Shown piece after piece: positions 5,624-47,811 of a stretch of DNA of 64,000 nucleotides. Both the position numbers and the translations under genes were made by a program. Every line of letters begins with the position of its first letter. The first letter of the stretch is position 1. Source of the DNA: Bacteroides oleiciplenus YIT 12058 (GTDB lineage: Bacteria > Bacteroidota > Bacteroidia > Bacteroidales > Bacteroidaceae). Under the pieces are notes generated by a model. It did no database searches. It saw nothing but the letters and a program-made list of their open reading frames with translations, and was not told the origin of the DNA. The stretch covers positions 1,624,816 to 1,688,815 of the forward strand of contig NZ_JH992940.1 of assembly GCF_000315485.1 (NCBI RefSeq), written 5' to 3'.

Positions 5624-5712
5624 CAAGGAAGTAAATACCCTGTCGCCAAGGAGTTAAGAGTTTGTCAACAAAGAGTTAACTCCCTGTCGACAAACTCTTA
5701 ACTCCTTGTAAA
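5624..5712. repeat. Tandem array of about four 22-23 bp units with palindromic cores
   Basis: Units begin at 5624 (23 bp), 5647, 5669 and 5691 (22 bp each), each opening with CAA. The cores are AGGAAGTAAATACC, GGAGTTAAGAG, AGAGTTAACTC and ACTCTTAACTC, so the half-sites GAG/CTC around TTAA flip between units. As a by-product, units 1 and 3 form a perfect 20-bp inverted repeat (5647-5666 with 5689-5708). The array sits between two divergent genes. Function unknown; it could be protein binding sites or a structured leader. Confidence 0.75.
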
Positions 5713-5870
5713 GCACTAATAATCAGCATTACCTTTTCAATAGGAATGAAGATAGTACTGAACAGAAAATGTATGCACTTATAGACGAAAGGAATGTTTT
5801 CGCTTCCCCTCTTTGTTTTCTAACATTTTTTCCATAACTTGCCACTGTTTATCAGTCAAGTCAGTAAATA

Positions 5871-5878
5871 TACATTTG
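5871..5878 (+). promoter_or_regulatory. -7 element very close to the 5889 start codon
   Basis: TACATTTG matches TAnnTTTG. Transcription would begin about 6-7 bases downstream, only a few bases before the ATG at 5889, giving an almost leaderless mRNA. The start at 5889 is needed for the lipoprotein signal, so a later start is unlikely. Confidence 0.5.
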
Positions 5879-5888
5879 TGAAAGTGCC

Positions 5889-8800
5889 ATGAAAACACCT
5901 CTTAAGGCGAAATTTTATCTATTTCTACTCATTTTGCTGCTATGTAGCTGCACTGAGCCAACGGTATCATTTCCTGAATTGAAGCATGACAGTTGGACAT
6001 TCAGCACCACACTGTCATCCATAAACGCCACTGCTACAGGCGATACGCTATTGCTGGGCAGTGCAGACAACGGAAGCATCTATTTTTTTATTCCCGACTC
6101 CCTGATTCGTGCGGTAAAAGTGGCCGAAGGCGGTGACAAAATATACAAAATCGAATCACTCGGCCATACCGACAGACAAAAAATACAGTTGTTGGTCAGT
6201 GTGCGCAATAAAGGTATCAGACTTGTAGAGATAAGAACAGACCTATTGGAAGCCCAGGTTATAAAAACCTTCTTGTGCGACACCACAAATATTTCACCTA
6301 AAAAACTCAACCGTTATTCTGCTTACGACTGGATTTATTCTCCAAAGGATAAAGCCCGCTATATCGCTACCAGCAACGGACTTTGGAAAATAACAGAGAA
6401 AATGCTCTCTGACAAAAACTCAGGAGATGTGGCAATGGAATTATCGTCCGACAGGAATGCCATACAGGGTATGCCGGAATACCCGATACGCTCTATCACA
6501 TTAAATCCCGATTGCGACGGTTCACTTTATTATACCGCACGCGACGGTTTTTATCATTTGGATATCAACCAAAACAGCCATACGCGCCTGTACAAAGGAA
6601 ACTATTTCTATTCCACCATCGACAACCATGACACACTGTATGTACTGGGCAAAAACTCCATGCTGAAAGGAAAAACCGATAATCACAGCGCAATGCAATT
6701 ATCAGATAATGAAGGCATGGCAAAACTTCTCTTCTGGAGTGAAGACCCCTGTTATGAATATCGCATCTTTGAAAAATCAAAAGCAATAGTAGACGGCGAA
6801 CGCTGCATTATACCAGCCAGCTTGCAAAACAAAAATTCTTTCCTGAAAACCCGGACCGGATACTACTTCGTCAGCTACGACAAGCTGATTAAAGTCTATC
6901 CGCACCAGAATATCTCTTCAACCCGAAAAACAATTATGGCGGCCTGCCGCAAAAATGACAACGAAATTTTCATTCTCGACAATCAGTACAACCTTTACAT
7001 GCTGGGTATGAACGACAGGATTGCCCATCGGCTGGGACAACTTTCCCGTCATCAGAGGGTGCGCATGATGGCTTATGCCCATGAACAATTGTATTTCCTG
7101 ACCGAAAGCGGCTTACAGGTTTGTTCTCCCCCTAAAAAGACAATCTTCCTCATCAACTCCACCATCCAACTGACCGACTGGAAGCATAAAGCCATATTAG
7201 ACGACGATGAAGTCACCTCAATGAAAGTCTTTAAGAAAGACTCTTTACTGTTGGGAACACGAAATCATTTGTGGTACATATCCCGCACACAAGAGCCGGA
7301 AGAGATAAAATTAAGATGGAACGGGCAGCTGCTGGACGACATCAATGAGGCCGGATATATATCAACCATCGATGCAAGTGCACAGGGCTACAAGGTAGGC
7401 GTATTGAATTTTGGCCTGTTTGAAGGAAGAAATTCAGTTAAAAGCGAAATCTCAAACCGACCCGATGTAGAGAGTCCTACAAATATATTGTCTGTCTCTG
7501 CCTGTAATAACACTTGGGCTATTTCCTCCGGCGACCATGTTTATATTTATAATTATCGTTCTAATACTGTTGAGCGGAAATATTCAATTCCCGCTTATGC
7601 TAAAAGCCTGGCTGTTCTGGAAAATGACCGGGGCTGCAATCTGTATCTACTACCCCCGAAAGGAATAGCATGGTATACGCTTAAAACCAATTCATATCAA
7701 CCGCACCTGTCCTATTTTTCAGACATCCCCTTCCACCCTCATTCTTCTTTCAAAATGAACAACGATTTCTATGTCTGTTCTTCCGACATAGGCGTTTGCC
7801 TGATAGAGAATGGAGTCCCTCCTGTGTGGATCACGAATTATGATGAAGGAACGGTATTAAGCGCCACAGAATGGCTCTCTGTCGCCGGTGCATTTGTTCT
7901 TTTCATCATCTTCATTGTTTTAGCAATAAGATATAAAAGCCAGATTGAAAAGACACATAAGCAGAAGGACGAGATTACTGTGAGGTTAAAAAAACAGATT
8001 GATGACCTGAACAAAAAAAGAGAAGAAAAAGAGAAGGAACTGAACGAGCAGAAAAAGAAAGCGGAAGAAAGTCAAAGAATTATTGAAGAGAAAAAGAAAG
8101 AAGAAGAGGCCGAGAAGCGGAAAAAACACGAAATAGAAGTAGCCAGAAAGCAGGAAAAGGCCAGTTATATAAAATCGCTGGAGTCCCGTCTTACTGTTTA
8201 TCATTATCTGAAATTCGATAAATTCAAAGAAATTCCCGAAAACGAAGAAACCAAATATGCTTTCTTAAACGAATGTGAGCAGGAAATAGACGAAAACATT
8301 CAAGCCGGAATTGCAGCACTCAACACACAAAGGATGTGGATGAGAAAAGCCGCCGAAGGCTGGTGCCAGATTATCGAAGCACACCAACTGAACTGTGACA
8401 CAAGCAATCTGCAAAAATTACGGGAGAAAACAGAACGTTATTTTTCATCTGATATAGATGAAGAACGGTTGAAAACAGATGCCGCTGGGTATGAAAATGA
8501 AAAGAATGAAGTACATACCCTTTTCGAAGCAGTAAGAAAAAACGTTTATGATAGATTAGCGGAAAAAATAGCTAATGCATTAAAACCTGATCATCTTGAA
8601 GAAGTGAGCGCCCTGCGGCAAATCATTTTGGACATCCACGATAAAGTATTCTTCAATGAAGTGGTGCAGACCGAATGTCCCAATAACAAGATATATGAGA
8701 AAGTAGCCTTTGTCTGCATGTCGGGAGTCAACCTGAAGTTAACCCCTCAGCAGATATTGACGTTGTCCTACTATCCCGAAGAAGAGTCTAAAGAAAGAAA

Positions 8801-8945
8801 GCTCGTCAACAATGCCAATGTATCCGACTATAAAGATAAAGGCAAGAATAAAAGACTCCCGAGAATTCTTTCGGGAGAAAACAGGCATCCGGTTAAAAAG
8901 GAAATCTTAGCGCTGTGGAAAGAGTTGTTCAGTGCGTTTAAATAG
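5889..8945 (+). CDS. Propeller / membrane-segment / coiled-coil sensor-like lipoprotein, unknown function
   Basis: 1018 residues, not recognised as a named family. The N-terminus is a lipoprotein-type signal (LLLCSC, Cys about 20). Residues ~30-650 are strand-rich with repeated WxIS/YxxT blade-like patterns, consistent with a beta-propeller. A single membrane segment follows at ~660-682 (AGAFVLFIIFIVLAI), then a long Lys/Glu coiled coil (~685-770) and a helical C-terminal domain of ~250 residues. This layout copies the periplasmic propeller, TM and cytoplasmic output plan of Bacteroides HTCS and LuxR-type sensors, but no His-kinase, receiver or clear HTH motif is visible. The ending (LKLTPQQILTLSYYPEE, then a basic tail) could be a degenerate HTH; that is speculation. 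It precedes two envelope genes on the same strand. Confidence 0.55.
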   Translation: MKTPLKAKFYLFLLILLLCSCTEPTVSFPELKHDSWTFSTTLSSINATATGDTLLLGSADNGSIYFFIPDSLIRAVKVAEGGDKIYKIESLGHTDRQKIQLLVSVRNKGIRLVEIRTDLLEAQVIKTFLCDTTNISPKKLNRYSAYDWIYSPKDKARYIATSNGLWKITEKMLSDKNSGDVAMELSSDRNAIQGMPEYPIRSITLNPDCDGSLYYTARDGFYHLDINQNSHTRLYKGNYFYSTIDNHDTLYVLGKNSMLKGKTDNHSAMQLSDNEGMAKLLFWSEDPCYEYRIFEKSKAIVDGERCIIPASLQNKNSFLKTRTGYYFVSYDKLIKVYPHQNISSTRKTIMAACRKNDNEIFILDNQYNLYMLGMNDRIAHRLGQLSRHQRVRMMAYAHEQLYFLTESGLQVCSPPKKTIFLINSTIQLTDWKHKAILDDDEVTSMKVFKKDSLLLGTRNHLWYISRTQEPEEIKLRWNGQLLDDINEAGYISTIDASAQGYKVGVLNFGLFEGRNSVKSEISNRPDVESPTNILSVSACNNTWAISSGDHVYIYNYRSNTVERKYSIPAYAKSLAVLENDRGCNLYLLPPKGIAWYTLKTNSYQPHLSYFSDIPFHPHSSFKMNNDFYVCSSDIGVCLIENGVPPVWITNYDEGTVLSATEWLSVAGAFVLFIIFIVLAIRYKSQIEKTHKQKDEITVRLKKQIDDLNKKREEKEKELNEQKKKAEESQRIIEEKKKEEEAEKRKKHEIEVARKQEKASYIKSLESRLTVYHYLKFDKFKEIPENEETKYAFLNECEQEIDENIQAGIAALNTQRMWMRKAAEGWCQIIEAHQLNCDTSNLQKLREKTERYFSSDIDEERLKTDAAGYENEKNEVHTLFEAVRKNVYDRLAEKIANALKPDHLEEVSALRQIILDIHDKVFFNEVVQTECPNNKIYEKVAFVCMSGVNLKLTPQQILTLSYYPEEESKERKLVNNANVSDYKDKGKNKRLPRILSGENRHPVKKEILALWKELFSAFK

Positions 8946-9113
8946 TCAGTTTTCACTCTTTTATTTACAAAAATATCAGGTAAAACACATTTTTCTGATA
9001 TACCCTAGTATCTTCGAACCTCCCCTATTCTTTGCTTTAAACAGCATACAGGCAGGTAAAAAAAGTAATTTGACTATACCTTGATTACCTTTCTTTTTTA
9101 GGGAAAAAACCTT

Positions 9114-9121
9114 TCATCTTT
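9114..9121 (+). promoter_or_regulatory. Weak -7 element upstream of the 9175 gene
   Basis: CATCTTTG differs from TAnnTTTG at the first base. It lies about 54 bp before the ATG, the usual distance. The 229-bp spacer from 8946 shows no other clear element. Confidence 0.3.
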
Positions 9122-9174
9122 GCACTATACCGAGAGAGCAAAAATGAAAAGTCAAACCCTAAAATCGAACAGTT

Positions 9175-10776: not shown

Positions 10777-10837
10777 CGGTCAGCAAGAAAGTAACTGAGA
10801 AACTATATATGAATTAACAATCCAAAAAAAGAATGCC

Positions 10838-12163: not shown

Positions 12164-12192
12164 TAAGAGGCATGAAAATAAAGGAGCAAAAT

Positions 12193-15077: not shown

Positions 15078-15159
15078 TACATTTGCACTGTGTTTTTCAT
15101 GGTATTAGATTTAAGGTTAATAAAGATTGGCTGTCTGGGATAGATAGCCTTCTTTTTTT
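15078..15159 (+). ncRNA. Candidate small RNA with own promoter and terminator
   Basis: In the 360-bp gap 14955-15314, TACATTTG (15078-15085) is a -7 element. About 45 bp on, GGCTGTCT (15129-15136) pairs with AGATAGCC (15142-15149) around GGGAT, followed by a T-rich run to 15159: a textbook intrinsic terminator. The implied transcript is ~68 nt (about 15092-15159) and contains no ORF. The block GTTTTTCATGGTATTAGATT looks familiar from other Bacteroides intergenic regions, but I cannot name an Rfam family. The rest of the gap holds only the promoter of the permease gene. Confidence 0.5.
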
Positions 15160-15261
15160 ATATACCCCTAACAGTTACGTTTTTTACTATCGATTCTTCA
15201 CCTTTCTTCACTTTTATGCGCTTTTTATTAATTAACTTGCTCACCCAATCAACGAAAATAT

Positions 15262-15314: not shown

Positions 15315-16562
15315 ATGAGTATAAAAGTTCGTTTGATTATCATGAACTTCCTGCAATTCTTTGTATGGGGGTCATGGTTAATTTCATTAGGAGGTTACAT
15401 GGGTAGAGAACTCCACTTCGAAGGAGGCCAAATCGGCGCAATATTCGCAACCATGGGCATTGCCTCTCTAATTATGCCCGGCATCATTGGTATCATTGCC
15501 GATAAATGGTTCAATGCAGAACGTTTATACGGACTTTGCCATATTATAGGAGCTGCCTGTCTTTTCTATGCCTCTACCGCTACGGGATATGACCAAATGT
15601 ATTGGGCAATGTTACTCAATCTATTGGTATATATGCCGACTTTATCACTAGCCAATACAGTTTCATACAATTCGCTAGAACAATATAAGTGTGATTTAAT
15701 CAAAGATTTCCCTCCCATTCGCGTATGGGGAACAATTGGTTTTATCTGTGCAATGTGGGCAGTGGATCTTACCGGATTCAAGAACTCAAGCGCTCAACTT
15801 TATGTAGGTGGTGTATCCGCATTAATGCTGGGACTATACTCTTTCACCCTACCGGCATGTAGACCCGCCAAAACCGGAAACAAATCGTTGCTTTCTTCTT
15901 TAGGGCTGGATGCATTTGTATTATTCAAAAGAAAGAAAATGGCCATTTTTTTCTTGTTCTCCATGCTTCTGGGAGCAGCGTTGCAGATTACCAATACGTA
16001 TGGTGACCTTTTCCTGGGTAGTTTTGCCAGTATTCCTGAGTATGCAGATTCTTTCGGCGTGAAACATTCGGTTATCCTGCTATCAATTTCGCAGATGTCC
16101 GAAACATTATTTATTCTCGCCATACCTTTCTTCCTGAGGCATTTCGGAATCAAGCAGGTTATGCTAATCAGTATGTTTGCATGGGTATTTCGGTTTGCAT
16201 TGTTCGGCTTCGGAGATCCGGGTTCCGGTCTGTGGATGTTAATCCTATCCATGATCGTTTATGGCATGGCATTCGATTTCTTCAACATTTCGGGTTCGTT
16301 GTTTGTTGAACAAGAAACTAGTTCCAATATTCGTGCCAGTGCCCAGGGATTATTCTTTATGATGACTAATGGTTTGGGTGCCATTATTGGAGGATACGCC
16401 AGCGGTGCCGTAGTAGATGCTTTCTCAGTATATACCGATGGCAAACTGATAAGTCGTGAATGGCCCGAAATCTGGTTTATCTTTGCTGCCTACGCACTAG
16501 TTATCGGCATTTTGTTTGCTTTGGTGTTCAAGTACAAGCATCGGCCGGAAGAAACGAATTAG
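15315..16562 (+). CDS. Nucleoside:H+ symporter family MFS transporter (NupG-like)
   Basis: Inner-membrane transporter with about 12 hydrophobic segments over 415 residues, of the NupG/XapB nucleoside permease family. Family-typical stretches are NFLQFFVWGSWLISLGGYM at the N-terminus, the loop after TM2 (GIIADKWFNAERLYG), PPIRVWGTIGFI and the C-terminal SAQGLFFMMTNGLGA. Role: proton-driven uptake of nucleosides for salvage. It is preceded by its own promoter and the small RNA unit, and followed by a repeat-rich hairpin, so it is probably monocistronic. Substrate specificity cannot be read from sequence. Confidence 0.85.
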   Translation: MSIKVRLIIMNFLQFFVWGSWLISLGGYMGRELHFEGGQIGAIFATMGIASLIMPGIIGIIADKWFNAERLYGLCHIIGAACLFYASTATGYDQMYWAMLLNLLVYMPTLSLANTVSYNSLEQYKCDLIKDFPPIRVWGTIGFICAMWAVDLTGFKNSSAQLYVGGVSALMLGLYSFTLPACRPAKTGNKSLLSSLGLDAFVLFKRKKMAIFFLFSMLLGAALQITNTYGDLFLGSFASIPEYADSFGVKHSVILLSISQMSETLFILAIPFFLRHFGIKQVMLISMFAWVFRFALFGFGDPGSGLWMLILSMIVYGMAFDFFNISGSLFVEQETSSNIRASAQGLFFMMTNGLGAIIGGYASGAVVDAFSVYTDGKLISREWPEIWFIFAAYALVIGILFALVFKYKHRPEETN

Positions 16563-16669
16563 TAGTAAGTAGATAGTACTAAGTAGTAAGTAGGGGATAG
16601 TCTTATTTATAAAAGCTGTTATAATCCGGGTATCTCCTACTTACTACTAACTACTTACTACTAACTACT
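16562..16669 (+). repeat. AGTAGTAAGTAG-type repeats forming a long hairpin
   Basis: AGTAGTAAGTAG occurs at 16562-16573 and 16582-16593; complementary TTACTACTAACTA-type copies occur at 16641-16669. Bases 16582-16597 pair with 16633-16648 (16 bp, one G-T) around a 35-base loop. It lies between convergently unrelated but co-oriented genes and may act as a terminator or attenuator, or be simple slippage-derived sequence. Confidence 0.5.
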
Positions 16670-23415: not shown

Positions 23416-26400
23416 TTACCCCTGATGCGCCTGCATATACTCCTTAGGTGACATTCCATGAACTTCTTTAAAAGAACTGGAGAAATGCGACAAATTCGTA
23501 TATCCTGTTGCATACGCTACTTCTGACACCGTCAGCTTCTTCTCTTTCAACAAGGCGGCAGCTTGCTGAAGGCGAATATTCTTAATAAAGTCGCGTGCCG
23601 AGAGATTCGTCAGCTCTTTCAACTTCCGGTGCACATGCACACGGCTCAGACCAACATTGGCCGCCAGCATCTCCACATTCAATTCCGTATTGGAAAGATT
23701 CTCATTGATAACCTTCATTATCTTGCCCATCAATATCTCGTCCGCGGACTTCATGGATAGCTTCTGCACCTTGTCCTCTTGTTGTTGTGCCCCACTGAAT
23801 TTACTCTTCAGCAGCTTACGGTTAGCTATCAGATTGGCAATCGTACCTTTCAGCAACTCCGTATTGAAAGGCTTCACCATATAAGCATCCGCGCCGGTTG
23901 CCATACCTTCCATTGTATCTTCCGGTTTAGATTTAGCTGTCAACAGAATAACAGGTACGTGATTGACATTCGTGTTCTGCTTCATTTTCCGACAAAGGGA
24001 TAATCCATCCATTTCCGGCATCATAATATCACTGATTACCAAATCAGGAGTATCCGCAAGAATGGTATCATATGCTTCTTTACCATTCTTGCACGTCATA
24101 ATCCTGTAGTCTTCCTCCAGTTCCTCCTTCAGATAAGAGAGAATTTCCTCCTCATCTTCCACTATCAATATACGCATGCGATTCTTCGCTTTACCCGTCT
24201 TTCTGCCTTCTGCATCTTCTTCCTCTTCTTCAAAGGTTTCCTCAAAATCCGGTTTCTCCGGCTTCACCAACACTGCATGAGGTGTGGTCGCCAGTTCCAC
24301 ATCTTCCAGTTCATCCGTCCGGAGATGAGCGGATCCCATCGGAATACGAATGATGAAACGGCTTCCCGGAGCATCCTCCCGGTTCTCTGCCAGAATAAGC
24401 CCATGATGCAATTCCACTAACGAACGGGACAGATGCAAACCAATGCCCGTACCAAAGTTAGACTTCGTCACATCATTATCTATTTGATAGAAACGCTCAA
24501 AGATGCGCTCTATCTTTTCCCGGTCGAGCCCGATGCCGCTATCAGTCACCGTTATCTGAAAATATTCCCTTAACGGGTCTTTGCGAGTGGAATCGCGTCC
24601 GGTAGAGAGCGTCACTGTAATTTCTCCCTGCTCCGGCGTATACTTGAAAGCATTGGAAAAGATATTCATCAATATCTTATCGAAGTTATTCATATCCACC
24701 CACACTTTCAGTTGCGGCATGGAATGTTCAAAGATGAAATGTATCTTCTTCTTTTGTGCCAGATAACCGAAGGTGAGCATCACATCGTCAATGAAGCCCA
24801 CTATATCCGTCTCCCTGAACTTCATGAACATCTGCCCTTTATCCAGCTTACGAATATCCATCAATTGGTTTATCAGACGAAGAATGCGCTGTGCATTCCG
24901 GTAAATCATCAGGTACGTCTTCTGCACCTCTCCGCCTTTCTTTTCCGCCAGCAGTTTCTCCAGCGGATTGATGATAAGCGTCATCGGGGTGCGTATCTCA
25001 TGTGATATATTGATAAAGAACTGCAACTTTGCCTCATTCAATTGCTCGGCATGCTCACGCTTCATGATTTCGCGGCGATGGCGCATACGCGATAATATAT
25101 AGTTGACAATGCCCACCACCAGCAAGCCGGCCAAGAAGGTATAAATGCAGTACGCCCACCACATTTCATACCAGGGCGGGGTAATCAGAATCTTGACTGT
25201 GCGTACTTCCGAAAGGTTACCGTGGCTCAACGCCCTCACCTGGAAAGTATACTTGCCCGGTGGAAGATTATTGTAAGTCACCCTGTTCACACCCGGCTCG
25301 GTAGTGAGCCATTGGTTACTCAATTCTTCAATCTTATACTGATAAGATATCTGTTCCGGATTGTTATACTGCAACGTAGAGAAGACGATGCTGAACGTAT
25401 TGTCATGATGAGCCAGGTGGAACATATTTGCATCCAGCACGGAAGTATAAATAACGGTATGCCTTCCCGAACGCGTATTCTTACGAACAGGTTGGTTGAA
25501 GATAGAGAAGTCCGTAATCCATACCCGGGTATTCTTCAGTACACTGCCTATGGAAGAAGGCAGAAAACAGGTGATACCATTAATGCCACCGAAATATATT
25601 TTCCCAGTGCGGTCCTTATAGAATGCCCCATGCGTAAACTCATTGCCCTGCAAACCGTCGCCCGCATAGTAATTGATAAAACGGTTGTTCGCCACATCAT
25701 ATTTGCAGATGCCCATATAGGTACTAATCCATATATTATGCTTCTCGTCCTCACAAAGTCCGCAAATCACATTGTTCGGTAAGCCGTCCGCTATCGTAAA
25801 ACATTTCAGCTCCTCGGTATTCTTGTCGAAACGATACAATCCGTCGGTCGTACCTGCCCAGATGTTCCCGGCATGGTCTTCCTGCAATACATATCCCACC
25901 CGGTCTTCAATCAAAGAGTTCACCTCACGATAGTTGATGAAACTCTCATTCTCTGGATTGAAACAACTGATGCCTTTGTAATGTCCCAGCCAAATCAATC
26001 CCTCACTGTCACAAAAGATATAATTCACCCAGTCGTTGGCCAATTCATTCCGCGTCAGGTCACCCGTTTCGTCTTTGGACGATTCGTAATGTTTCAAAGC
26101 CTTTGTCACCAGATTATATTGATAGAAACCAGAACCGAAAGTAGCGATATACAGATTCTTGTGCCGGTCTTCCGTAATGGAGAATATCTTCTCATTGTCA
26201 ATTGATAACGGATACTCACATTCTCCCGTCCGCCTGTTCAGCTTCGCCAGTCCCCGTGTATAAGAGCCTAACCAGAAGTCACCATTCGTATCTTCATACA
26301 TGCACATGATGGTGTTGGCAACCGACCGCAAACTATTGCCCGGCTGGTAATGCCGCAACCTGTTTCCTTCCGCATCCAGTTCATACACTCCCTCATTATC

Positions 26401-27513
26401 TGCTCCCACCCACAGATGGTGGTTGCTGTCCTGATAGATGGACATCACACACCCCTGTCCGATGGGATTATAGTAGATAGACTTATTACCGTAATATTCA
26501 AACGGGTTTTCCTGTCTCGGTATCAAAGCAATCCCGCGTTGAAACAAGCCCAACCACAGATTCTTGTCCCGGTCTTCCAGTATAGCATGTATCTTCCCTT
26601 CTGAAAAGTCCAGCGGAGCGGAATTAATGCTGTAATCTTCTATCGTCCCGGTCATCCGGTTATACGTTTTCAGCCCCTGCCCGTCGGTACCTATCAGCAA
26701 ACGGTCGTCCACCACCGTAAGGCAATAGATGGATAATGCTCCCCCACCTTTACAGGGCACAGGCACAAAACAATTCCGCTCACGGTCATAGCGTGACATT
26801 CCTTGTTTTTGAGTTCCCACAAACAGGTTTCCGTACTTATCCTCAGTAATGGCAGATACATAATTATCATTAATCACCGGATATCTGTAGATGCGCACTT
26901 CTTTCGTTGCAGGCAGATAGCAAATCAGTCCATGCCCCTCGGTGCCTATCCATATATTATAATGAGAGTCTTCATAGAGGTTGGACTGAAAGTTATAGTT
27001 CACTTGCCTCATGATTTCATCAATGGAGAGAGCTTGCTGCCGTTGTTCATCAAGACGGAAGATTCCCTGTCCGGTGGTCACTATCCAGATTTCCCCATTA
27101 TGCAACTTCTGCATCTGCGTGACATGCGGAAAGACCTGCTTACCAGCACGCATCATTGGTATTTCCCGAAAAGTATCCGTCTCCGGGTCATACTTCATCA
27201 GTCCGTCGATACAGCCCACCAGCAAATTCTGCCGGTTGTCTTCGAAAAGTGTGCGCACATAGTTGTTTTTAATGGAAGTGGAATCACCGGAAAGGTGTTT
27301 ATAGTTCGAGAAGCGAAGCCCATCGAACCTGTTCAGTCCATATTCTGTAGCAATCCAGATAAATCCCCTCTTATCCTGAAATATCTGATTGATAAGACTG
27401 CTGGATAATTCGTTATTGGTAGAGTAGAATTTACCGGTCTGTGCTGCCAGAGGCAAGCCAACCAAACACAGCAATAATAATATAAAAAGGATTCTGTTAT
27501 GGGATGTTCTCAT
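23416..27513 (-). CDS. Hybrid two-component system regulator (HTCS) no. 1
   Basis: 1365-residue one-polypeptide sensor and transcription factor. Order: signal peptide (GLPLAAQ); periplasmic double propeller of reg_prop blades (~30-690; repeated DKRGFIWIATEYGLNRFDG-type units); Y_Y_Y domain (~700-785); membrane segment (~790-812); HisKA with phospho-acceptor His in NISHEIRTPMT (~838); HATPase_c with N box and GTGIGLHLSRSLVELHHG; receiver domain with phospho-Asp in VISDIMMPEMDG (~1160); AraC-type HTH at the C-terminus (VHRKLKELTNLSARDFI). It is divergent from the susC operon across a 559-bp spacer, so it probably senses xylo-oligosaccharides and activates that operon. HTCS no. 2 (48075) has the same architecture. 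Confidence 0.93.
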   Translation of the reverse strand: MRTSHNRILFILLLLCLVGLPLAAQTGKFYSTNNELSSSLINQIFQDKRGFIWIATEYGLNRFDGLRFSNYKHLSGDSTSIKNNYVRTLFEDNRQNLLVGCIDGLMKYDPETDTFREIPMMRAGKQVFPHVTQMQKLHNGEIWIVTTGQGIFRLDEQRQQALSIDEIMRQVNYNFQSNLYEDSHYNIWIGTEGHGLICYLPATKEVRIYRYPVINDNYVSAITEDKYGNLFVGTQKQGMSRYDRERNCFVPVPCKGGGALSIYCLTVVDDRLLIGTDGQGLKTYNRMTGTIEDYSINSAPLDFSEGKIHAILEDRDKNLWLGLFQRGIALIPRQENPFEYYGNKSIYYNPIGQGCVMSIYQDSNHHLWVGADNEGVYELDAEGNRLRHYQPGNSLRSVANTIMCMYEDTNGDFWLGSYTRGLAKLNRRTGECEYPLSIDNEKIFSITEDRHKNLYIATFGSGFYQYNLVTKALKHYESSKDETGDLTRNELANDWVNYIFCDSEGLIWLGHYKGISCFNPENESFINYREVNSLIEDRVGYVLQEDHAGNIWAGTTDGLYRFDKNTEELKCFTIADGLPNNVICGLCEDEKHNIWISTYMGICKYDVANNRFINYYAGDGLQGNEFTHGAFYKDRTGKIYFGGINGITCFLPSSIGSVLKNTRVWITDFSIFNQPVRKNTRSGRHTVIYTSVLDANMFHLAHHDNTFSIVFSTLQYNNPEQISYQYKIEELSNQWLTTEPGVNRVTYNNLPPGKYTFQVRALSHGNLSEVRTVKILITPPWYEMWWAYCIYTFLAGLLVVGIVNYILSRMRHRREIMKREHAEQLNEAKLQFFINISHEIRTPMTLIINPLEKLLAEKKGGEVQKTYLMIYRNAQRILRLINQLMDIRKLDKGQMFMKFRETDIVGFIDDVMLTFGYLAQKKKIHFIFEHSMPQLKVWVDMNNFDKILMNIFSNAFKYTPEQGEITVTLSTGRDSTRKDPLREYFQITVTDSGIGLDREKIERIFERFYQIDNDVTKSNFGTGIGLHLSRSLVELHHGLILAENREDAPGSRFIIRIPMGSAHLRTDELEDVELATTPHAVLVKPEKPDFEETFEEEEEDAEGRKTGKAKNRMRILIVEDEEEILSYLKEELEEDYRIMTCKNGKEAYDTILADTPDLVISDIMMPEMDGLSLCRKMKQNTNVNHVPVILLTAKSKPEDTMEGMATGADAYMVKPFNTELLKGTIANLIANRKLLKSKFSGAQQQEDKVQKLSMKSADEILMGKIMKVINENLSNTELNVEMLAANVGLSRVHVHRKLKELTNLSARDFIKNIRLQQAAALLKEKKLTVSEVAYATGYTNLSHFSSSFKEVHGMSPKEYMQAHQG

Positions 27514-27544: not shown

Positions 27545-27644
27545 AGAAAAACTTTCGAGATGTACCCGACTATCGGATGAATTAAGATAGTACTGCCAAT
27601 CACACTACGTGAGTGAGCACATAACACTCCCGGACTGAGTACTC

Positions 27645-27759
27645 AAAACACCCGGATGTTTTCACCCAAAACATGGGGATGTTTTACACTATAACATCCG
27701 GATGTTTTGTGGTAAAACATCCGGGTGTTTTCGTTGATAAGATGGGGATGTTTTTACCT
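27645..27759. repeat. Five tandem 23-bp units with ACATCCGGATGTTTT-like palindromic core
   Basis: Units start at 27645, 27668, 27691, 27714 and 27737, exactly 23 bp apart. The core (unit position 5-16) reads CACCCGGATGTT, CATGGGGATGTT, CATCCGGATGTT, CATCCGGGTGTT, GATGGGGATGTT; in unit 3 AACATCCGGATGTT is a perfect palindrome. All keep GTTTT, while the last five bases are free. A degenerate sixth unit may precede at 27621-27644. It lies in the 559-bp spacer between the divergent HTCS no. 1 and susC genes, upstream of the putative operator. Function unknown. Confidence 0.85.
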
Positions 27760-27829
27760 TTCAGTATAGGACTGAAAAGTGCTCGGTTTCTATGGGTGAC
27801 GCAATGAATATGTATCATGCACCCATTCG

Positions 27830-28072: not shown

Positions 28073-31000
28073 ATGAAATGCACAAATTATTATTTTAAGC
28101 CTTTGGGGCTTCTATTCTTATTATGCCTGATACCTATATGGGCATTTTCACAGAACATCACTGTGAAAGGTGTGGTGAACGACGCCACAGGAGAACCGGT
28201 TATCGGTGCAAGTGTAGTGCAGAAAGGCACCAGCAACGGTATCATTACAGATATCGACGGTAACTTCACACTGAATGTTCCATCCAACAGTACCATCGTA
28301 ATTTCATTTGTGGGCTACAAGACGCAGGAAATCGCCGTAGCCGGGAAGACACAATTCAATATTACGCTGAAAGAAGATACTGAGATGCTGGACGAAGTAG
28401 TGGTAGTGGGTTACGGACAGATGAAGCGTTCGGACCTGACAGGTTCCGTGGTATCGGTGAACGATGCGGCTATCAAGAAATCAGTGCCGACTTCTATCGA
28501 TCAGGTGCTGCAAGGCCGCGCTGCCGGTGTGCAGATTCAAGCCAACTCCGGTACTCCGGGCGCAAGTTCCGCCATCCGCATCCGTGGTATCAACTCACTG
28601 AATGCAACGAACCAACCCATCTTTGTGATTGACGGTGTAGTAGTGGATGCTGCCACAGACGATGAAACCAACAACCCGTTGTCGAGCATCAACCCTTCGG
28701 ACATCGTTTCAATGGACGTACTGAAAGATGCCTCCGCTACTGCCATCTACGGTGCGCGTGCCTCCAACGGTGTCATCATGATTACTACCAAACGCGGGCA
28801 AGCAGGCGAGTCTACCATCACTTATGATGGCTACATCGGTTGGCAGAGCATGCCCAAACACTTGGATATGATGAACCTGCGCGAATATGCCGAGCACCAC
28901 AACGCCCGTGCAGCAGCAGGCATCGTAACTCAAAGCAGCGCTTTCGTACGCCCTGACATGCTGGGTGAAGGAACCGACTGGCAGGACGAACTTTTCCAGA
29001 ATGCAATGATGACCAGCCACAACCTCTCGATGACAGGTGGCAGCGATAAAGTGACTTATGCCATCAGTGCCGGTTATCTGGATCAGGACGGCATAGCGCT
29101 GGGTTCAGGCTTCAAACGCCTCTCCTTGCGTGGAAACGTAGATGCACAAGTGAAGAAGTGGCTGAAAGCAGGAATCAACTTCTCACTGTCCGATTCTAAA
29201 CAAAAGGTAGGCAGCGACAACAATATCATCATGAATGCGTTGCAGCAACAACCCTCCGTAGCAGTAACCAATGCCGACGGAGGTTTCGACGGACCGGACG
29301 ATGTATGGATGCCGGTCAACCCGGTAGCTTATGCCACTATCCGCGACAACTACAACAAGAAGATGAACTTTCGCATGAGCACTTATCTGGAAGCTACACT
29401 GATGGACGGGTTGTCTTTCAAAACAGAACTATCCGCCGACTATAACCTGAATAAGTTCTATTATTATGAACCGGACTATAAGTTTGGCGTCATCACCAAC
29501 GAAACCCGTAGCGGTCGTTGGACCAAAACCGACACCAAGTACTGGTCATGGAGGAACATCCTTACTTATAGCAAGACTTTCGCCAATGTACACAATATCA
29601 ACGTCATGGTGGGACAGGAAATGTCACAGTCGCACTGGGAAACACAGGTGAGCAATGCAACAGGCTATCTGAGCAACTCAACAAAAGACCCGAGTGCAGG
29701 CGACATCTCCAAATCGAGCGGTACCGGTTCGCAAAGCGACAATTCCATCGCCTCTTTCTTCGGTCGTGGCTTCTATTCGTATGACGACCGCTACTTACTC
29801 ACCGCTACCATACGTCGTGACGGTTCTTCCAAATTTGCCAAAGGCAACCGTTGGGGCTGGTTCCCTTCTGCCGCCTTGGGCTGGAAACTTTCCAATGAAT
29901 CTTTCCTGAAAGACAACGACATAATCAACAACCTGAAACTCCGCTTCGGTTGGGGTGCAACAGGTAACCAGAATGTGGAAAACTGGGCTTACATGGCCAT
30001 GCTTTCATCAAAGACTACCCCGTGGGGTGTAGGTGTGCTGACAGGAAATACTGCCAACCCCGAACTGAAATGGGAAACTACCTACTCTACCAACATTGGT
30101 CTGGATCTCAGTCTTTTCCAAAACCGCATCGAGTTCATAGCCGATGTTTACTACAAGAAAACCAAAGACTTACTGCTTCAACTCCCTTTACCGTCTTATC
30201 TGGGTTCGGCAGGAGCCGGTTCGGCCAGTAACCCGTGGGCAAACGTAGGTTCACTGGAGAATAAAGGTATAGAGTTGACCCTGAACACCGTGAACATTGA
30301 CAAGAAAGGTTTCCAATGGCGCTCCAACTTCGTGTTCTCACTGAATCGCAACAAAGTGCTCAAGCTGGATACGGAAAGTGCTTCCATCGAAAAGACCTAC
30401 AGCGTGGGCAGTGAAACCAGCGTAGTGACACGTACCGTTGTAGGACAACCGATCGGACAATTCTGGGGTTACAAGGTGATTGGCCGTTTCGACAAAGCCG
30501 AAGACTTCTATTATAAGGATAAAAACGGTGCCGTGAAACCGGTTGCCCTACCCGCGGGCTCTTCCATCGAAGAAGGGAAGACCTGGATTGGCGACTATAT
30601 CTTTGCCGACCTCAACAATGACGGTGTAATCGACAATAACGACTGTACCTTCATCGGTAATCCTGAACCTAAGTTCACCTACGGTATCGGCAATACCTTC
30701 TCTTGGAAAGGTTTCGACCTCACCATCTTCCTCTCCGGCTCCTATGGCAATGACGTGCTGAACTACAACAGCCGCTACATAGAGAATCCGCGAGTGAACA
30801 GTAACCTGCTGAAGAGCGCAGCCAACTATGCCCGAGTAGAGAGAATAGACCCGAATGGCCCGGATGATTTCCGCAACCTGCATGTTGTAAACGGAAGCAC
30901 ATTCCTGCCACGTATATCAGCTTCTACCACGAATGCCAATAACCGCGTCAGCGACCTCTACATAGAAGATGGCTCTTACCTGCGCATCCAAAACATCTCA

Positions 31001-31216
31001 CTGGGTTATACTCTACCTAAACAATGGGTCAGCAAGTTGAACTTACAGAACGTGAAGATATATGCCAACTTGCAGAACGTATACACCTGGACCAACTATT
31101 CCGGTTACGACCCCGAGGTGGGTTGCATGTATGGCGATGCTCTGATGAATGGTCTGGACTATGGCCGTTATCCCTCACCGCGTATTTATACATTCGGTTT
31201 AAACGTTTCTTTCTAA
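28073..31216 (+). CDS. SusC-like TonB-dependent outer-membrane transporter (xylan)
   Basis: Outer-membrane channel that imports oligosaccharides with its SusD lid. 1047 residues: signal peptide (IPIWAFSQ), carboxypeptidase-regulatory-like domain (~25-105; VKGVVNDATGEPVIGASVVQ), TonB-box-like DEVVVVGYG, plug (SVPTSIDQVLQGRAAGVQIQ) and a ~22-strand barrel ending in FGLNVSF. It starts the xylan operon SusC - SusD - glycan-binding protein - GH10. Only one SusCD pair is visible, whereas some xylan PULs have two. Substrate is inferred from neighbours. Confidence 0.95.
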   Translation: MKCTNYYFKPLGLLFLLCLIPIWAFSQNITVKGVVNDATGEPVIGASVVQKGTSNGIITDIDGNFTLNVPSNSTIVISFVGYKTQEIAVAGKTQFNITLKEDTEMLDEVVVVGYGQMKRSDLTGSVVSVNDAAIKKSVPTSIDQVLQGRAAGVQIQANSGTPGASSAIRIRGINSLNATNQPIFVIDGVVVDAATDDETNNPLSSINPSDIVSMDVLKDASATAIYGARASNGVIMITTKRGQAGESTITYDGYIGWQSMPKHLDMMNLREYAEHHNARAAAGIVTQSSAFVRPDMLGEGTDWQDELFQNAMMTSHNLSMTGGSDKVTYAISAGYLDQDGIALGSGFKRLSLRGNVDAQVKKWLKAGINFSLSDSKQKVGSDNNIIMNALQQQPSVAVTNADGGFDGPDDVWMPVNPVAYATIRDNYNKKMNFRMSTYLEATLMDGLSFKTELSADYNLNKFYYYEPDYKFGVITNETRSGRWTKTDTKYWSWRNILTYSKTFANVHNINVMVGQEMSQSHWETQVSNATGYLSNSTKDPSAGDISKSSGTGSQSDNSIASFFGRGFYSYDDRYLLTATIRRDGSSKFAKGNRWGWFPSAALGWKLSNESFLKDNDIINNLKLRFGWGATGNQNVENWAYMAMLSSKTTPWGVGVLTGNTANPELKWETTYSTNIGLDLSLFQNRIEFIADVYYKKTKDLLLQLPLPSYLGSAGAGSASNPWANVGSLENKGIELTLNTVNIDKKGFQWRSNFVFSLNRNKVLKLDTESASIEKTYSVGSETSVVTRTVVGQPIGQFWGYKVIGRFDKAEDFYYKDKNGAVKPVALPAGSSIEEGKTWIGDYIFADLNNDGVIDNNDCTFIGNPEPKFTYGIGNTFSWKGFDLTIFLSGSYGNDVLNYNSRYIENPRVNSNLLKSAANYARVERIDPNGPDDFRNLHVVNGSTFLPRISASTTNANNRVSDLYIEDGSYLRIQNISLGYTLPKQWVSKLNLQNVKIYANLQNVYTWTNYSGYDPEVGCMYGDALMNGLDYGRYPSPRIYTFGLNVSF

Positions 31217-43498: not shown

Positions 43499-43530
43499 CA
43501 AACAAGAAGAACCCTTAAAATTATACAATC

Positions 43531-44508
43531 ATGAAGAAAGAAAAAAGATACTTAGTACCCGGAGATTATATGGCAGACCCTGCCGTTCACGTATTCAACG
43601 ACCGCCTTTACATCTATCCGTCGCACGACTGGGAAAGTGGTATCCCCGAGAATGACAACGGCGACCACTTCAATATGAAAGACTATCACGTCTTCTCTAC
43701 CGACGATCCGATGCACGGAGAAATCACAGACCATGGTCTTGTACTCACCACCGAAGATATTCCTTGGGCCGGACGCCAACTCTGGGACTGTGACGTAGCA
43801 GAGAAAGATAGCAAATACTATATGTACTTCCCTCTGAAAGACCAAAACGACATCTTCCGTATCGGCGTTGCCATCAGCGACTGTCCCGAAGGTCCGTTCA
43901 CTCCCCAGCCTGACCCGATGCGCGGAAGCTACAGCATGGACCCTGCCATACTGAATGACGGCGACGGCAACTATTATATGTACTTCGGCGGTCTCTGGGG
44001 CGGACAACTGCAACGTTACCGTGACAACAAAGCCCTGGAAAGCGGTGCTACTTTCCCTGCAGACAATGAACCGTCCATCCCTGCACGCGTTGCCAAACTC
44101 AGTGCAGACATGCTGCAATTCGCCGAAGAGCCTAAAGCTGTAGTTATTCTGGACGAAAACGGCAAACCGCTGACTGCCGGAGATAACGACCGACGTTTCT
44201 TTGAAGCCTCCTGGATGCACAAGTACAACGGCAAGTATTACTTCTCCTACTCCACCGGAGATACCCATCGCTTGTGCTATGCCATCGGCGACAACCCATA
44301 CGGTCCATTCACCTATCAGGGCGTCATCCTCACCCCGGTAGTAGGCTGGACCACCCATCATGCCATTGTGGAATACAAAGGCAAATGGTATCTGTTCCAC
44401 CACGACAGTGTGCCTTCCGGCGGACGCACCTGGTTACGCAGCCTGAAAGTTTGTGAACTGGAATACGATGCCGACGGACGTATCATTACCATCGAAGGAC
44501 TTGATTAA
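43531..44508 (+). CDS. Cytoplasmic GH43 (subfamily 1-like) beta-xylosidase
   Basis: 325 residues without a signal peptide, so intracellular. The five-bladed GH43 propeller residues are visible: base Asp16 in MADPAV, pKa modulator Asp ~137 in SMDPAIL, acid Glu ~224 in FFEASWMHKY. It fits GH43_1-type enzymes, which act mainly as beta-xylosidases, sometimes with arabinofuranosidase side activity. It probably splits xylobiose or larger xylosides brought in by the GPH symporter upstream. It starts 33 bp after the GH10-GH43 gene and is followed 16 bp later by the dehydrogenase. Confidence 0.88.
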   Translation: MKKEKRYLVPGDYMADPAVHVFNDRLYIYPSHDWESGIPENDNGDHFNMKDYHVFSTDDPMHGEITDHGLVLTTEDIPWAGRQLWDCDVAEKDSKYYMYFPLKDQNDIFRIGVAISDCPEGPFTPQPDPMRGSYSMDPAILNDGDGNYYMYFGGLWGGQLQRYRDNKALESGATFPADNEPSIPARVAKLSADMLQFAEEPKAVVILDENGKPLTAGDNDRRFFEASWMHKYNGKYYFSYSTGDTHRLCYAIGDNPYGPFTYQGVILTPVVGWTTHHAIVEYKGKWYLFHHDSVPSGGRTWLRSLKVCELEYDADGRIITIEGLD

Positions 44509-44523
44509 CCGACAATCAACCAT

Positions 44524-45504
44524 ATGGATACAGTAAAAATAGGAATCATAGGTACCGGATGGATTGCTGAGAAGATGGCAATCACCCTCATGGGAATGAA
44601 AGGTGTGGAAGCTTACGCAGTTGCTTCCCGCCAGTTACAAACCGCCCGCGACTTTGCCGAAAAGTGGGGATTCACCCGTGCCTACGGTTCCTATGAAGAG
44701 ATGCTTGCTGATGAAAAGGTGGAGTTGGTATACATTGCCACTCCTCATTCACATCACTATGAACATGCACGCATGAGTTTGCTACATGACAAAGCGGTAT
44801 TGTGCGAGAAAGCATTTACCTCCAATGCCCGCCAGGCAGAAGAATTACTGAATCTTGCCAAAGAAAAGAATCTCTTCATCACCGAAGCCATCTGGACACG
44901 CTACATGCCTTTGTCTCAAACCATCAACGAAATCATAGCAAGCGACATCATTGGGCGCCCCATGACATTATCTGCCAATCTGGGTTATCCTATCGGCAAC
45001 CGCGAACGGCTCCGGCAACCCGCTCTTTCAGGCGGAGCTTTACTCGACCTGGGAGTATATACGCTGAACTTCGCCTCCATGATATTCGGCACCGAGATTG
45101 AGAATATCGCTTCAACCTGCATTAAGACTGACACAGGAGTGGATGCCCAAAACAGCATAACCCTCATCTTCAAAGATGGAAAAATCGCCGTACTGCATAG
45201 CACCATGCTGAGCATGACCGACCGCCAGGGTATTATCTCCGGAGAAAAAGGACACATAATTGTAGAGAACATCAATAATCCGCAACGGGTTACGGTAGTG
45301 ACGGAAGATTACCAAACCATAGCCGTCTACAACTGCCCTCCACAAATCACCGGATATGAATATCAGGTATATGCTTCTATAGATGCCCTGAAGAACAGGT
45401 GGCTCGAATCGCCTTTCATGCCTCATGCCGAAACCTTGCGCATCATGCGCCTGATGGATAACCTGCGTAAAGAATGGGGTGTACGCTACCCCTCTGACGA
45501 ATGA
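44524..45504 (+). CDS. Gfo/Idh/MocA family oxidoreductase (xylose/dihydrodiol dehydrogenase-like)
   Basis: 326 residues, cytoplasmic. The Rossmann NAD(P) site GIIGTGWIAEKM is at the N-terminus, and the catalytic block VLCEKAFTSNARQAEELL plus EAIWTRYMP are characteristic of the dimeric dihydrodiol dehydrogenase / NADP-D-xylose dehydrogenase branch. In this position, after the GH43 xylosidase and before GH67, it may oxidise a released sugar such as xylose to xylonolactone or act on a uronic acid; substrate is not decidable here. It ends 28 bp before the GH67 gene. Confidence 0.8.
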   Translation: MDTVKIGIIGTGWIAEKMAITLMGMKGVEAYAVASRQLQTARDFAEKWGFTRAYGSYEEMLADEKVELVYIATPHSHHYEHARMSLLHDKAVLCEKAFTSNARQAEELLNLAKEKNLFITEAIWTRYMPLSQTINEIIASDIIGRPMTLSANLGYPIGNRERLRQPALSGGALLDLGVYTLNFASMIFGTEIENIASTCIKTDTGVDAQNSITLIFKDGKIAVLHSTMLSMTDRQGIISGEKGHIIVENINNPQRVTVVTEDYQTIAVYNCPPQITGYEYQVYASIDALKNRWLESPFMPHAETLRIMRLMDNLRKEWGVRYPSDE

Positions 45505-45532
45505 ATGAATAACCAATCAACAATTCTTATTT

Positions 45533-47566
45533 ATGAAGAAAGTACTTTCCCTACTCTTTATGATATGCTTTCTGCTTCCCGTTTCAGCCGAGAACGGCAG
45601 TCGCCTGTGGCTCCGATACTCCACAGACGGGAATGCAACCATATCCTGCAACAAGCAATCGCCCATGCTGGACATCGCCACCACCGAGTTGCGCAAAGCC
45701 TGGAAAGGCATGCCCGTTACATTAATCCTCCAGCGCAACAAAGAAACACGTGCTTTAGGTGAAGAAGGATATTGCCTCCTCACTTCAGATAACGGCCAAA
45801 AGATAACCATCACCTCCGCCGGAGAGCGCGGTCTGCTTTACGGAGCCTTCCACCTGCTGAGGCTGCAAGATACCGGTGCAGAAAACTTCTCTAAACTGAA
45901 TATCAAAGAAAGTCCCACTTACGACCTGCGCATCCTCAACCACTGGGATAATCTGGACCGCAGCATTGAACGGGGTTATGCCGGACGGTCTTTATGGGAC
46001 TGGGAAGCCCTGCCTTCCACCCTCTCCGACCGCTATGCGGACTATGCCCGCGCCAACGCTTCCATCGGCATCAACGGCACAGTCATCAACAACGTAAATG
46101 CCTCCTCACAAATCCTTTCCACCGAATATCTGGAGAAAGTAAAAGCACTGGCAGATGTATTCCGCCCGTACGGCATTCGCGTGTATCTCTCCATTAACTT
46201 CGCTTCCCCTATGCAATTAGGAGGTCTTTCCACCGCCGACCCGCTGGATAAAGAAGTCATCGCCTGGTGGAAGAACAAAACAAAAGAAATCTACCGCCTC
46301 ATCCCCGACTTCGGCGGCTTCCTCGTGAAAGCCAATTCCGAAGGGCAACCCGGCCCGTGCGACTTTAACCGCACCCATGCCGAAGGTGCCAACATGCTGG
46401 CGGATGCCGTGAAACCTTACAAAGGCATTATCATGTGGCGTGCCTTCGTTTATAGCCCCAGCGATGCCGATCGCGCCAAACAGGCTTATCTGGAATTCCA
46501 GCCGCTGGACGGGCAATTCCGCAATAACGTCATCGTACAGATAAAGAACGGTCCGGTGGATTTCCAACCGCGCGAACCATACAGTCCCCTGTTCGGTGCC
46601 ATGCCCAAGACCGCACAGATGGTCGAATTCCAGATTACACAAGAATATCTGGGCTTCTCCAATCATCTTGCCTATCTTGCTCCGATGTGGAAGGAATTTT
46701 TCGATTTCGTACAACCTTCTTCATTGAAAGCAATGGCAGGCGTTGCCAATATCGGAACAGATGCCAACTGGTGCGGACATCCCTTTGCACAGTCCAACTG
46801 GTATGCTTTCGGCCGCCTCGCCTGGAATCCTGAGCTATCTTCCGGAGCAATAGCGGAAGAATGGTTGAAACAGACATTCTTTGATGCGCACAACCCTCAG
46901 CACGCCCCCATTGCCCATGAAGTATGGCAAATGATGATGCAAAGCCGTGAAGCTGTAGTAGACTACATGATGCCCCTCGGCCTCCACCATCTTTTTGCCT
47001 GGGGACATCATTACGGTCCCGAGCCCTGGTGTGATATTCCCGGTGCACGCCCCGACTGGATGCCCTCTTATTATCACAAAGCTGATAAAGCTGGAATCGG
47101 CTTCGACCGCAGCCATACCGGAAGTAATGCCACCGCCCAGTATCCCGACTCGCTTTGCCATCTCTACGATGACATCAATACTTGTCCGGATGAATACCTG
47201 CTTTGGTTCCACCATGCTCCATGGAATCACACCATGCAAAGCGGACGTACACTCTGGGATGAACTCTGCTTCCGCTACGACAGAGGTGTGCAGCAAGTCA
47301 GAAGTTTTCAAAGAAAATGGGACCTAACAGAGAATTATATCGACATGGAACGTTTCAAAGACGTGCAGTCACGCCTGAAAATACAGGCGCGTGATGCCAC
47401 ATGGTGGAAAGATGCCTGCCTGCTCTACTTCATGGAATATTCAGGTATGCGGATTCCTTACGACATCGAACGCCCGATACATGAATTGGATGACTTGAAA
47501 CAGGTGAAACTTCCGATTGACAACCACGAATGTCCTACAAGGGAGATGCTGAATGAAAGGAGATAA
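45533..47566 (+). CDS. GH67 alpha-glucuronidase
   Basis: 677 residues with signal peptide (CFLLPVSA), so periplasmic. It removes (4-O-methyl-)alpha-D-glucuronic acid from the non-reducing end xylose of short glucuronoxylan oligosaccharides. Family signature: ILNHWDNLDRSIERGYAGRS. The catalytic acid Glu in NSEGQPGP (~269), Asp in GPVDFQP (~342) and Glu in TQEYLG (~370) keep the spacing of the characterised enzyme GlcA67A (73 and 28 residues). Length fits the family. Last gene of the 36.9-47.6 kb operon, followed by a hairpin. Confidence 0.95.
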   Translation: MKKVLSLLFMICFLLPVSAENGSRLWLRYSTDGNATISCNKQSPMLDIATTELRKAWKGMPVTLILQRNKETRALGEEGYCLLTSDNGQKITITSAGERGLLYGAFHLLRLQDTGAENFSKLNIKESPTYDLRILNHWDNLDRSIERGYAGRSLWDWEALPSTLSDRYADYARANASIGINGTVINNVNASSQILSTEYLEKVKALADVFRPYGIRVYLSINFASPMQLGGLSTADPLDKEVIAWWKNKTKEIYRLIPDFGGFLVKANSEGQPGPCDFNRTHAEGANMLADAVKPYKGIIMWRAFVYSPSDADRAKQAYLEFQPLDGQFRNNVIVQIKNGPVDFQPREPYSPLFGAMPKTAQMVEFQITQEYLGFSNHLAYLAPMWKEFFDFVQPSSLKAMAGVANIGTDANWCGHPFAQSNWYAFGRLAWNPELSSGAIAEEWLKQTFFDAHNPQHAPIAHEVWQMMMQSREAVVDYMMPLGLHHLFAWGHHYGPEPWCDIPGARPDWMPSYYHKADKAGIGFDRSHTGSNATAQYPDSLCHLYDDINTCPDEYLLWFHHAPWNHTMQSGRTLWDELCFRYDRGVQQVRSFQRKWDLTENYIDMERFKDVQSRLKIQARDATWWKDACLLYFMEYSGMRIPYDIERPIHELDDLKQVKLPIDNHECPTREMLNERR

Positions 47567-47634
47567 TGAAACGGCAGAAAGTATCACGAAGCTTCTTCAA
47601 ATCTTCCTGCTCGTAAACAAAATGGGTTGAATTT

Positions 47635-47678
47635 GAGAGATGAACGATTCGCAGGTATTCTGCCGGAATCGTTCTCTC
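47635..47678 (+). terminator. Long imperfect hairpin after the GH67 gene
   Basis: GAGAGA and ACGATTC (47635-47650, with a TGA bulge) pair with GAATCGT and TCTCTC (47666-47678). Within the loop GCAG pairs with CTGC. No T-run directly follows, but the position fits the operon end. Confidence 0.5.
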
Positions 47679-47745
47679 AAAGCCCGCTTACACTCGATGC
47701 ACTCACCAATTCTTTTTACAAATAACATCTACTCAAGAAATAGCC

Positions 47746-47811
47746 GTATACTGAACCTAATTCAGTCGTATAGTGAATAGGGTTCAGTATACAACTGAAT
47801 ACAGCACAACC
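47746..47811. repeat. Tandem array of three 22-bp units (ACTGAAC / AGTGAAT / ACTGAAT)
   Basis: Units start at 47746, 47768 and 47790. The words ACTGAAC (47750), AGTGAAT (47772) and ACTGAAT (47794) lie exactly 22 bp apart, and TTCAGT recurs in units 1 and 2. GTATACTGAACC (47746-47757) and GGTTCAGTATAC also make a perfect 12-bp inverted repeat. It lies in the 508-bp gap before HTCS no. 2; apart from the hairpin and promoter I see nothing else in the gap. Confidence 0.7.

Follow-up and report, generated by a model that had tools for sequence, protein, structure and literature searches.

Families of dispersed intergenic arrays with a common 22-23 bp unit register in Bacteroides oleiciplenus

A 64,000-nucleotide stretch of the Bacteroides oleiciplenus YIT 12058 genome (7.09 Mb; contig NZ_JH992940.1, here C1; G000:C1:1624816-1688815; hereafter the window) contains three short intergenic arrays, A1, A2 and A3, each from a different one of many repeat families that are dispersed between genes and whose units recur in a 22-23 bp register. 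Self-match by lag is highest at 22 for A1 (0.59), 23 for A2 (0.57) and 22 for A3 (0.51), and all three arrays lie where the original prediction, made from the letters of the window alone, had placed them (Table 1). Their cores had been described as unrelated in sequence, which is only partly true: the A3-type core TTCAGTATAGGACTGAA sits in register beside A2. The linkers, taken to vary freely, do not: A3-type blocks recur in both orientations, for example as ATACG/CGTAT, TAGGG/CCCTA and TGGCA/TGCCA.

Table 1 Arrays A1, A2 and A3 and their surroundings, in window positions (ORF, open reading frame)
Feature	Position	Description
Array A1	5641..5711	Three 22-bp units between joints
A1 joints		TGTCGCCAA 5641-5649, TGTCAACAA 5663-5671, TGTCGACAA 5685-5693, TGTAA 5707-5711
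A1 TTAA centres	5654, 5676, 5698	
A1 perfect 20-bp inverted arms	5647..5708	5647-5666 and 5689-5708, middle unit between them
A1 gap		Divergent, between ORFs 3692-5440 (-) and 5889-8945 (+)
CCCGGACTGAG	27629..27639	Half of TTCAGTCC/GGACTGA kind, on A2's other side from the A3-type core
Array A2	27645..27754	Five 18-bp dyad cores at 27645, 27668, 27691, 27714 and 27737; spacing exactly 23 bp
A3-type core in register with A2	27760..27776	Centre 22.5 bp past last A2 core
A2 gap		Divergent, between ORFs 23416-27513 (-) and 28073-31216 (+)
Array A3	47746..47799	Arms ACTGAA/TTCAGT/AGTGAA/TTCAGT/ACTGAA at 47750, 47761, 47772, 47783 and 47794 (every 11 bp)
A3 outer 12-bp inverted arms		47746-47757 and 47781-47792
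A3 gap		Between two + ORFs, 45533-47566 and 48075-52175

Judging by size and order, the genes neighbouring A2 and A3 presumably resemble hybrid two-component regulators and a SusC. The sequence GATAGTACTG adjoins both A1 and A2, at window positions 5751 and 27586, and just 3 more copies occur across 1.6 Mb of C1. A similar end borders C1:1052967-1053196 (L106:12967-13196), a dispersed inverted-repeat element of ~200 bp that resembles a miniature inverted-repeat transposable element (MITE) and has more than 10 further matches in the B. oleiciplenus genome and many in the Bacteroides genome G007.

Autocorrelation was analyzed over the intergenic DNA of 1.6 Mb of C1 and the window (23% of the genome; 163 kb intergenic in 689 segments, with 0 N bases). 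The intergenic mask was mechanical, removing ORFs of at least 90 aa, and not based on annotation, so that the 44 arrays described below are intergenic by construction. Relative to 20 dinucleotide shuffles, lag 21 (z=12.8) and lag 22 (z=13.6) are raised and lag 23 is not (z=-0.4); the excess that the original prediction expected at 22-23 bp is thus present in bulk at 22 bp, joined by 21 bp, but missing at 23 bp. Lags 21 and 22 stand out, yet the scatter from lag to lag is wide and the noise extends far beyond z=2, with lags 5, 6, 8, 11 and 14 at ~6.5-7.1, lag 7 at 11.6, and lags 37 and 40 at ~-5. When segments with heptamer repeats are removed, z is 11.9 at lag 22 and 8.8 at lag 21. Strong-array segments, counted once 59 heptamer-repeat segments had been removed from the 689, concentrate at period 22 (39 segments), with 7 at period 23, 4 at 21, 8 at 33, 15 at 44, and no more than 2 at each other period between 12 and 45. 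One shuffled set yielded 0 strong arrays at every period, and five stretches of E. coli K-12 under the same mask (250 kb, 33 kb intergenic) likewise yielded 0 arrays at every period.

The window also contains facing heptamer arrays (AGTAGTA / CTACTTACTACTAA) at 16561-16593 and 16637-16669, which belong to a genome-wide heptamer class. This class is similar in kind to the TAACTGA heptamer repeats, described as intergenic short-period arrays that include some in Bacteroidetes (PMC4679880). The 22-23 bp arrays share with those repeats an intergenic location and a short period, but the TAACTGA unit is 7 bp.

The 22-23 bp class is found in other Bacteroides genomes as well. Per 10 kb of intergenic DNA, arrays of period 22 or 23 number 2.72 in the B. 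oleiciplenus sample, 2.35 in G003, 4.83 in G012 and 1.56 in G007, and lag 22 reaches z=7.6, 6.2 and 3.2 in the latter three, respectively; the evidence from G007 is weak because lag 12 exceeds lag 22 there (z=5.3 vs 3.2). The cores differ in each of these genomes, as illustrated by TTGTACAAAAGAAT of G003, found at 7 loci within 400 kb, where 6 loci have four joints and so three units. The common design across unrelated cores that had been proposed from the window is therefore genome-wide in the B. oleiciplenus sample, clear in G003 and G012, and weak in G007.

By short-match clustering, the 44 period-22/23 arrays fall into 21 families, 12 of which have a single array in the sample. A palindromic or half-palindromic core, which had been attributed to all three window arrays, holds for part of the class: inverted symmetry of the units exceeds that of column-permuted units (p<=0.05) in 23/44 arrays. 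The array-bearing gaps are tandem in 26 cases, divergent in 11 and convergent in 7, matching the expectation from intergenic bases (p=0.81). This absence of gene-orientation bias indicates that a position in gene-start spacers, and with it enrichment upstream of genes, is not a property of the class, contrary to the original prediction, and on the same ground a general promoter or terminator role was rejected.

Whole-array folding falls below shuffles (z<-2) in 27/44 arrays on the + strand and 27/44 on the - strand, compared with 13/44 for random intergenic pieces. A string of single-unit hairpins was considered and rejected, as limiting the pairing to 22 bp leaves z<-2 in only 12 (+) and 9 (-) of the 44 arrays vs 8/44 controls. 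Folding of the whole array thus exceeds 22-bp-limited folding, and the inverted symmetry is mainly a property of the whole array. Hairpins acting at the RNA level, e.g. as transcript ends or attenuators, would be in keeping with this excess, but the two strands fold alike (r=0.96), the 11 arrays in divergent gaps are as many as chance provides, and no Rfam family was found at the window arrays at the gathering threshold; we give such a role very little credence. Elsewhere in the window, Rfam family RF04319 (FopS, family of paralogous small RNAs) matches 15090-15162 (+) with 78.9 bits vs a gathering score of 56.

Cores of the window arrays are dispersed through the B. oleiciplenus genome. The A2-type core has 32+32 matches vs 4+4 for its reversed control and occurs at six loci, of which five hold 4-5 units spaced 23 bp apart and the sixth holds 2, while A3-type units occur at six loci (control 0) and A1-type arrays, read by eye, at 11. 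The raw A1-type count at <=3 mismatches (40+53) is lower than that of its control (65+67), so that the A1 signal comes from matches with 0-1 mismatch and from the 22/44-bp pairing. Beyond this genome, the A3 arm pattern TTCAGT-5-ACTGAA-5-TTCAGT is present in 12/60 genomes of the genus (control 0), and an exact scan of a genome collection for the A1 unit returned 21 stretches from four organisms (B. cellulosilyticus, B. timonensis, B. stercorirosoris and one uncultured Bacteroides). The exact pattern of a further family, CTCCGTA, occurs in 8/393 genomes of the order (19+30 matches in B. oleiciplenus; reversed control in 2 genomes), and at <=1 mismatch it has 41+39 matches in the related genome G043 (control 0).

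CTCCGTA arrays were also observed in 3/4 sampled genomes (G237, G340 and G429) of one genus from another family of the order. They have the linkers CCAAG and TCATC in common with those of B. oleiciplenus, pointing to either transfer or deep age. Viral carriage of the A1- and A2-type patterns was rejected, since viral contigs contained 0 stretches matching the exact patterns; the A3 17-mer TTCAGTCGTATACTGAA is found in 15 viral contigs (L175-L189).

Comparison with relatives reveals differences of whole units. At the A3 locus, G043 (96% identity over 4.8 kb) carries one extra 22-bp unit. Nine G043 contigs with CTCCGTA arrays were compared with the B. oleiciplenus sample, of which 3 were used, 1 aligned partly and 5 did not align. 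The length differences at the three arrays used, which have an 11-bp sub-unit, are 11 and 11 bp at one, 22 bp at another and 11 bp at the remaining one. The centre of one of these arrays, C1:384927-385006, is an 80-bp in-place inversion: its exact reverse complement is found in G043, with both flanks direct. Near relatives were compared at 8 arrays, 4 of them against a metagenome-assembled genome (MAG) of an uncultured Bacteroides and 4 against G043. A unit-level event is seen in 5 of these arrays, namely 22 bp at A3, 11+11 bp, 22 bp plus the inversion, 11 bp, and a single swap of a half-unit. Whole-unit duplication or deletion and inversion, one of the two mechanisms put forward in the original prediction, are therefore directly visible between relatives.

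Among loci that match retrieved records, those of B. oleiciplenus share 89-97% identity with the MAG and 74-94% with B. stercorirosoris, B. timonensis and B. cellulosilyticus; 7 of the 21 A1-unit stretches have no long match in the B. oleiciplenus sequence compared and were left out of the orthology. At orthologous A1-type arrays the site is retained while individual half-units switch between two forms, AACTYCTTGTC (P) and AAGAGTTTGTC (Q). If U denotes a unit and a prime its inversion, locus 1 reads U'/P'P/U in B. oleiciplenus and the MAG and P'P/P'P/U in B. timonensis, B. cellulosilyticus and B. stercorirosoris, whose orthology rests on one flank each. Locus 2 reads U'/P'P/U in B. oleiciplenus and U'/U'/U in the MAG and B. 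stercorirosoris, and locus 3 reads U'/U' in B. oleiciplenus and the MAG and U'/P'P in B. stercorirosoris. At another A1-type locus the unit order of B. oleiciplenus is retained in G043 and G047. For A1 itself, G043, G057 and G128 align to only one side of the gap and are thus uninformative on its presence or absence there.

Relatives also differ at C1:1121868-1121889 (L110:1868-1889, compared with L305), where G043 has a long hairpin of 7-bp GCTACNN units and B. oleiciplenus none; opposite the same position G047 holds a different insert of ~500 bp.

These comparisons bear on whether the arrays are plain local minisatellites, produced by slippage at each locus with no dispersal. Indels of exact units between relatives are what slippage predicts, but identical cores at many unlinked loci, conserved element ends (see below), inverted units together with an in-place inversion, and one unit length across unrelated families are not. 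The minisatellite reading is largely refuted for the multi-locus families, a refutation that does not cover the 12 single-array families, and as an account of the class we find it very unlikely.

Substitutions number 36/630 in arrays and 103/2432 in flanks, or 15/509 vs 90/2186 with the inverted array left out. Constraint on the arrays was considered on this basis and set aside, as the deficit relative to the flanks is not clear. This counts against the second mechanism originally put forward, in which one or more DNA-binding proteins would bind every two helical turns on one DNA face, with the spacing selected and the cores drifting. Phased binding of this kind also has no direct support from gene orientation, which shows none of the bias that operators upstream of a common regulon would give. 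It would require dozens of proteins or one that is blind to sequence, and none came to light, though no search was aimed at one. In addition, conserved and variable columns segregate significantly (p<=0.05) in just 5 of the 29 arrays with at least 3 units (15/44 arrays, with fewer than 3 units, were left out), which is a weak signal. The narrow 22-23 bp spacing across 21 families, the different cores in one register at A2, and the long retention at orthologous gaps all accord with phased binding, which we consider unlikely but worth serious consideration.

Evidence on mobility comes from gaps, element ends and transposases. In G001, G007, G009 and G012 the gap orthologous to that of the array at C1:1051500 is shorter, and the array is missing from it. 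Seven non-orthologous A1-type copies have the common ends TTATCAG.C..TT and ACAGGGTATT.A, which are only loosely inverted; at least 5/7 copies agree in 11/18 inner left columns and 11/14 inner right columns, compared with 6/27 and 3/31 of the columns further out. Searches for the Y1 transposase domain (Y1_Tnp, PF01797, E<=0.001) in five genomes gave no match in G001, G003 or G007, one in G012, and one solid and one weak match in B. oleiciplenus. The A1-A3 motifs are absent from both B. oleiciplenus Y1 loci (~3.3 kb each). A B. oleiciplenus Y1 transposase gene (L072, C1:1799982-1800323) is flanked by GGCTGAAAGCC and CCCGGGGC..GCCCCGGG hairpins, and the GGCTGAAAGCC hairpin also occurs close to an A2-type array in L005.

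Repetitive extragenic palindromic (REP) elements, bacterial interspersed mosaic elements (BIMEs) and REPINs, associated with REP-associated tyrosine transposases (RAYTs), are comparable to the arrays in consisting of short, dispersed, intergenic palindromic units that often form inverted clusters, as described in PMC3733652 and PMC6006769. Hairpin units moved by such an IS200-like Y1 transposase would explain the inverted units, the intergenic dispersal and the multiple copies seen here, and a Bacteroidetes subclass of TnpAREP with atypical structures is on record (PMC6006769). Unlike the elements in those accounts, the present arrays keep a fixed 22-23 bp register and comprise many families per genome, and a Y1 match is missing in 3/5 genomes, including G003 despite its 7 loci of one family in the 400-kb sample. 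Moreover, the solid Y1 gene of B. oleiciplenus is flanked by other hairpins, with no A1-A3 motif within its 3.3-kb locus. A RAYT transposase is not required for the arrays; RAYT/REPIN was rejected as a general cause on the absence of PF01797 from 3/5 genomes and of the motifs beside the B. oleiciplenus Y1 genes, and mobilization of this kind is highly improbable. CRISPR-like, iteron and Tn7/Mu-end (22-bp site) readings were further candidates.

In the literature searched, the nearest match is BrickBuilt of Porphyromonas gingivalis, and a multi-family 22-bp class in Bacteroides was not found there. BrickBuilt is described as a single family of 23-nt intergenic tandem repeats of MITE/minisatellite character, made of direct repeats with a leader, a tail and IS5-type terminal repeats and present in 19 copies (PMC4596501). 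Following that account, the arrays share with BrickBuilt tandem, intergenic, dispersed, non-coding units of varying number within the same bacterial order, and the 23-nt unit agrees within one base with the 22-23 bp, mostly 22, observed here. They differ from the one family of that account in numbering 21 families in a sample of 23% of the genome, in having inverted unit symmetry in about half of the arrays, and in showing in-place flips. IS5-type ends (GAGACCTTTGCA) were found near 0/44 arrays (within 400 bp, <=1 mismatch), with 6 matches elsewhere in the sample. The second half of the BrickBuilt unit is variable; in the present arrays, columns segregate in the 5/29 noted above. The suggestion that such arrays had not been described must therefore be narrowed: a 23-nt family of the same order is on record in PMC4596501, although that account presents it as one family. 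The arrays resemble both BrickBuilt and BIMEs and fit the full definition of neither.

On balance, we lean towards the view that these are dispersed repeat families in a 22-23 bp register, likely non-autonomous hairpin-forming mobile elements, in which relatives gain, lose and flip units, probably by template switching or recombination. Elements would spread and insert by transposition in trans, the enzyme being supplied from elsewhere, and after insertion exchange between in-register copies would rearrange the units, with exchange between direct copies adding or removing whole units and exchange between inverted copies flipping them. Because units lie in register in both orientations, such exchange would add, remove or flip whole units, and the register would maintain itself with no need for selection. 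When template switching occurs between short inverted repeats, their arms become homogenised and spacers are inverted (PMC8604942), a behaviour that fits both the change from P'Q to P'P and the 80-bp flip, and the likeness extends to the mutations described in PMC8794818. Those reports concern point events, whereas here template switching would act on dispersed multi-unit arrays while keeping their register.

Several observations weigh against this mobile-element interpretation. The sole gap without an array is that of relatives only 76-78% identical, at which distance the gap borders are illegible and a target-site duplication is not readable. Several A1-type arrays are retained at orthologous gaps across species and so give no sign of recent jumping, and no transposase is linked to any array family. 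Unit symmetry is absent from the single CTCCGTA and direct-repeat families. Finally, unit-level exchange alone fails to explain either one unit length across 21 families or two core types in one register at the A2 site. A more speculative possibility, which we advance tentatively, is that the arrays are register-locked mosaics, in which one machine, blind to sequence and measuring in steps of two helical turns (22 bp), both writes and keeps dyad units whose many sequences are unrelated, across Bacteroides genomes. Such a machine might be a protein filament or a replication or recombination process, with cores swapped or inverted and the phase kept.

In B. oleiciplenus, arrays of this class occur at ~2.7 per 10 kb of sampled intergenic DNA with a unit length that is independent of sequence. 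The whole-unit and flip differences between near relatives allow the origin of a short repeat period to be tested directly, and the unit-level differences may be usable for strain typing.

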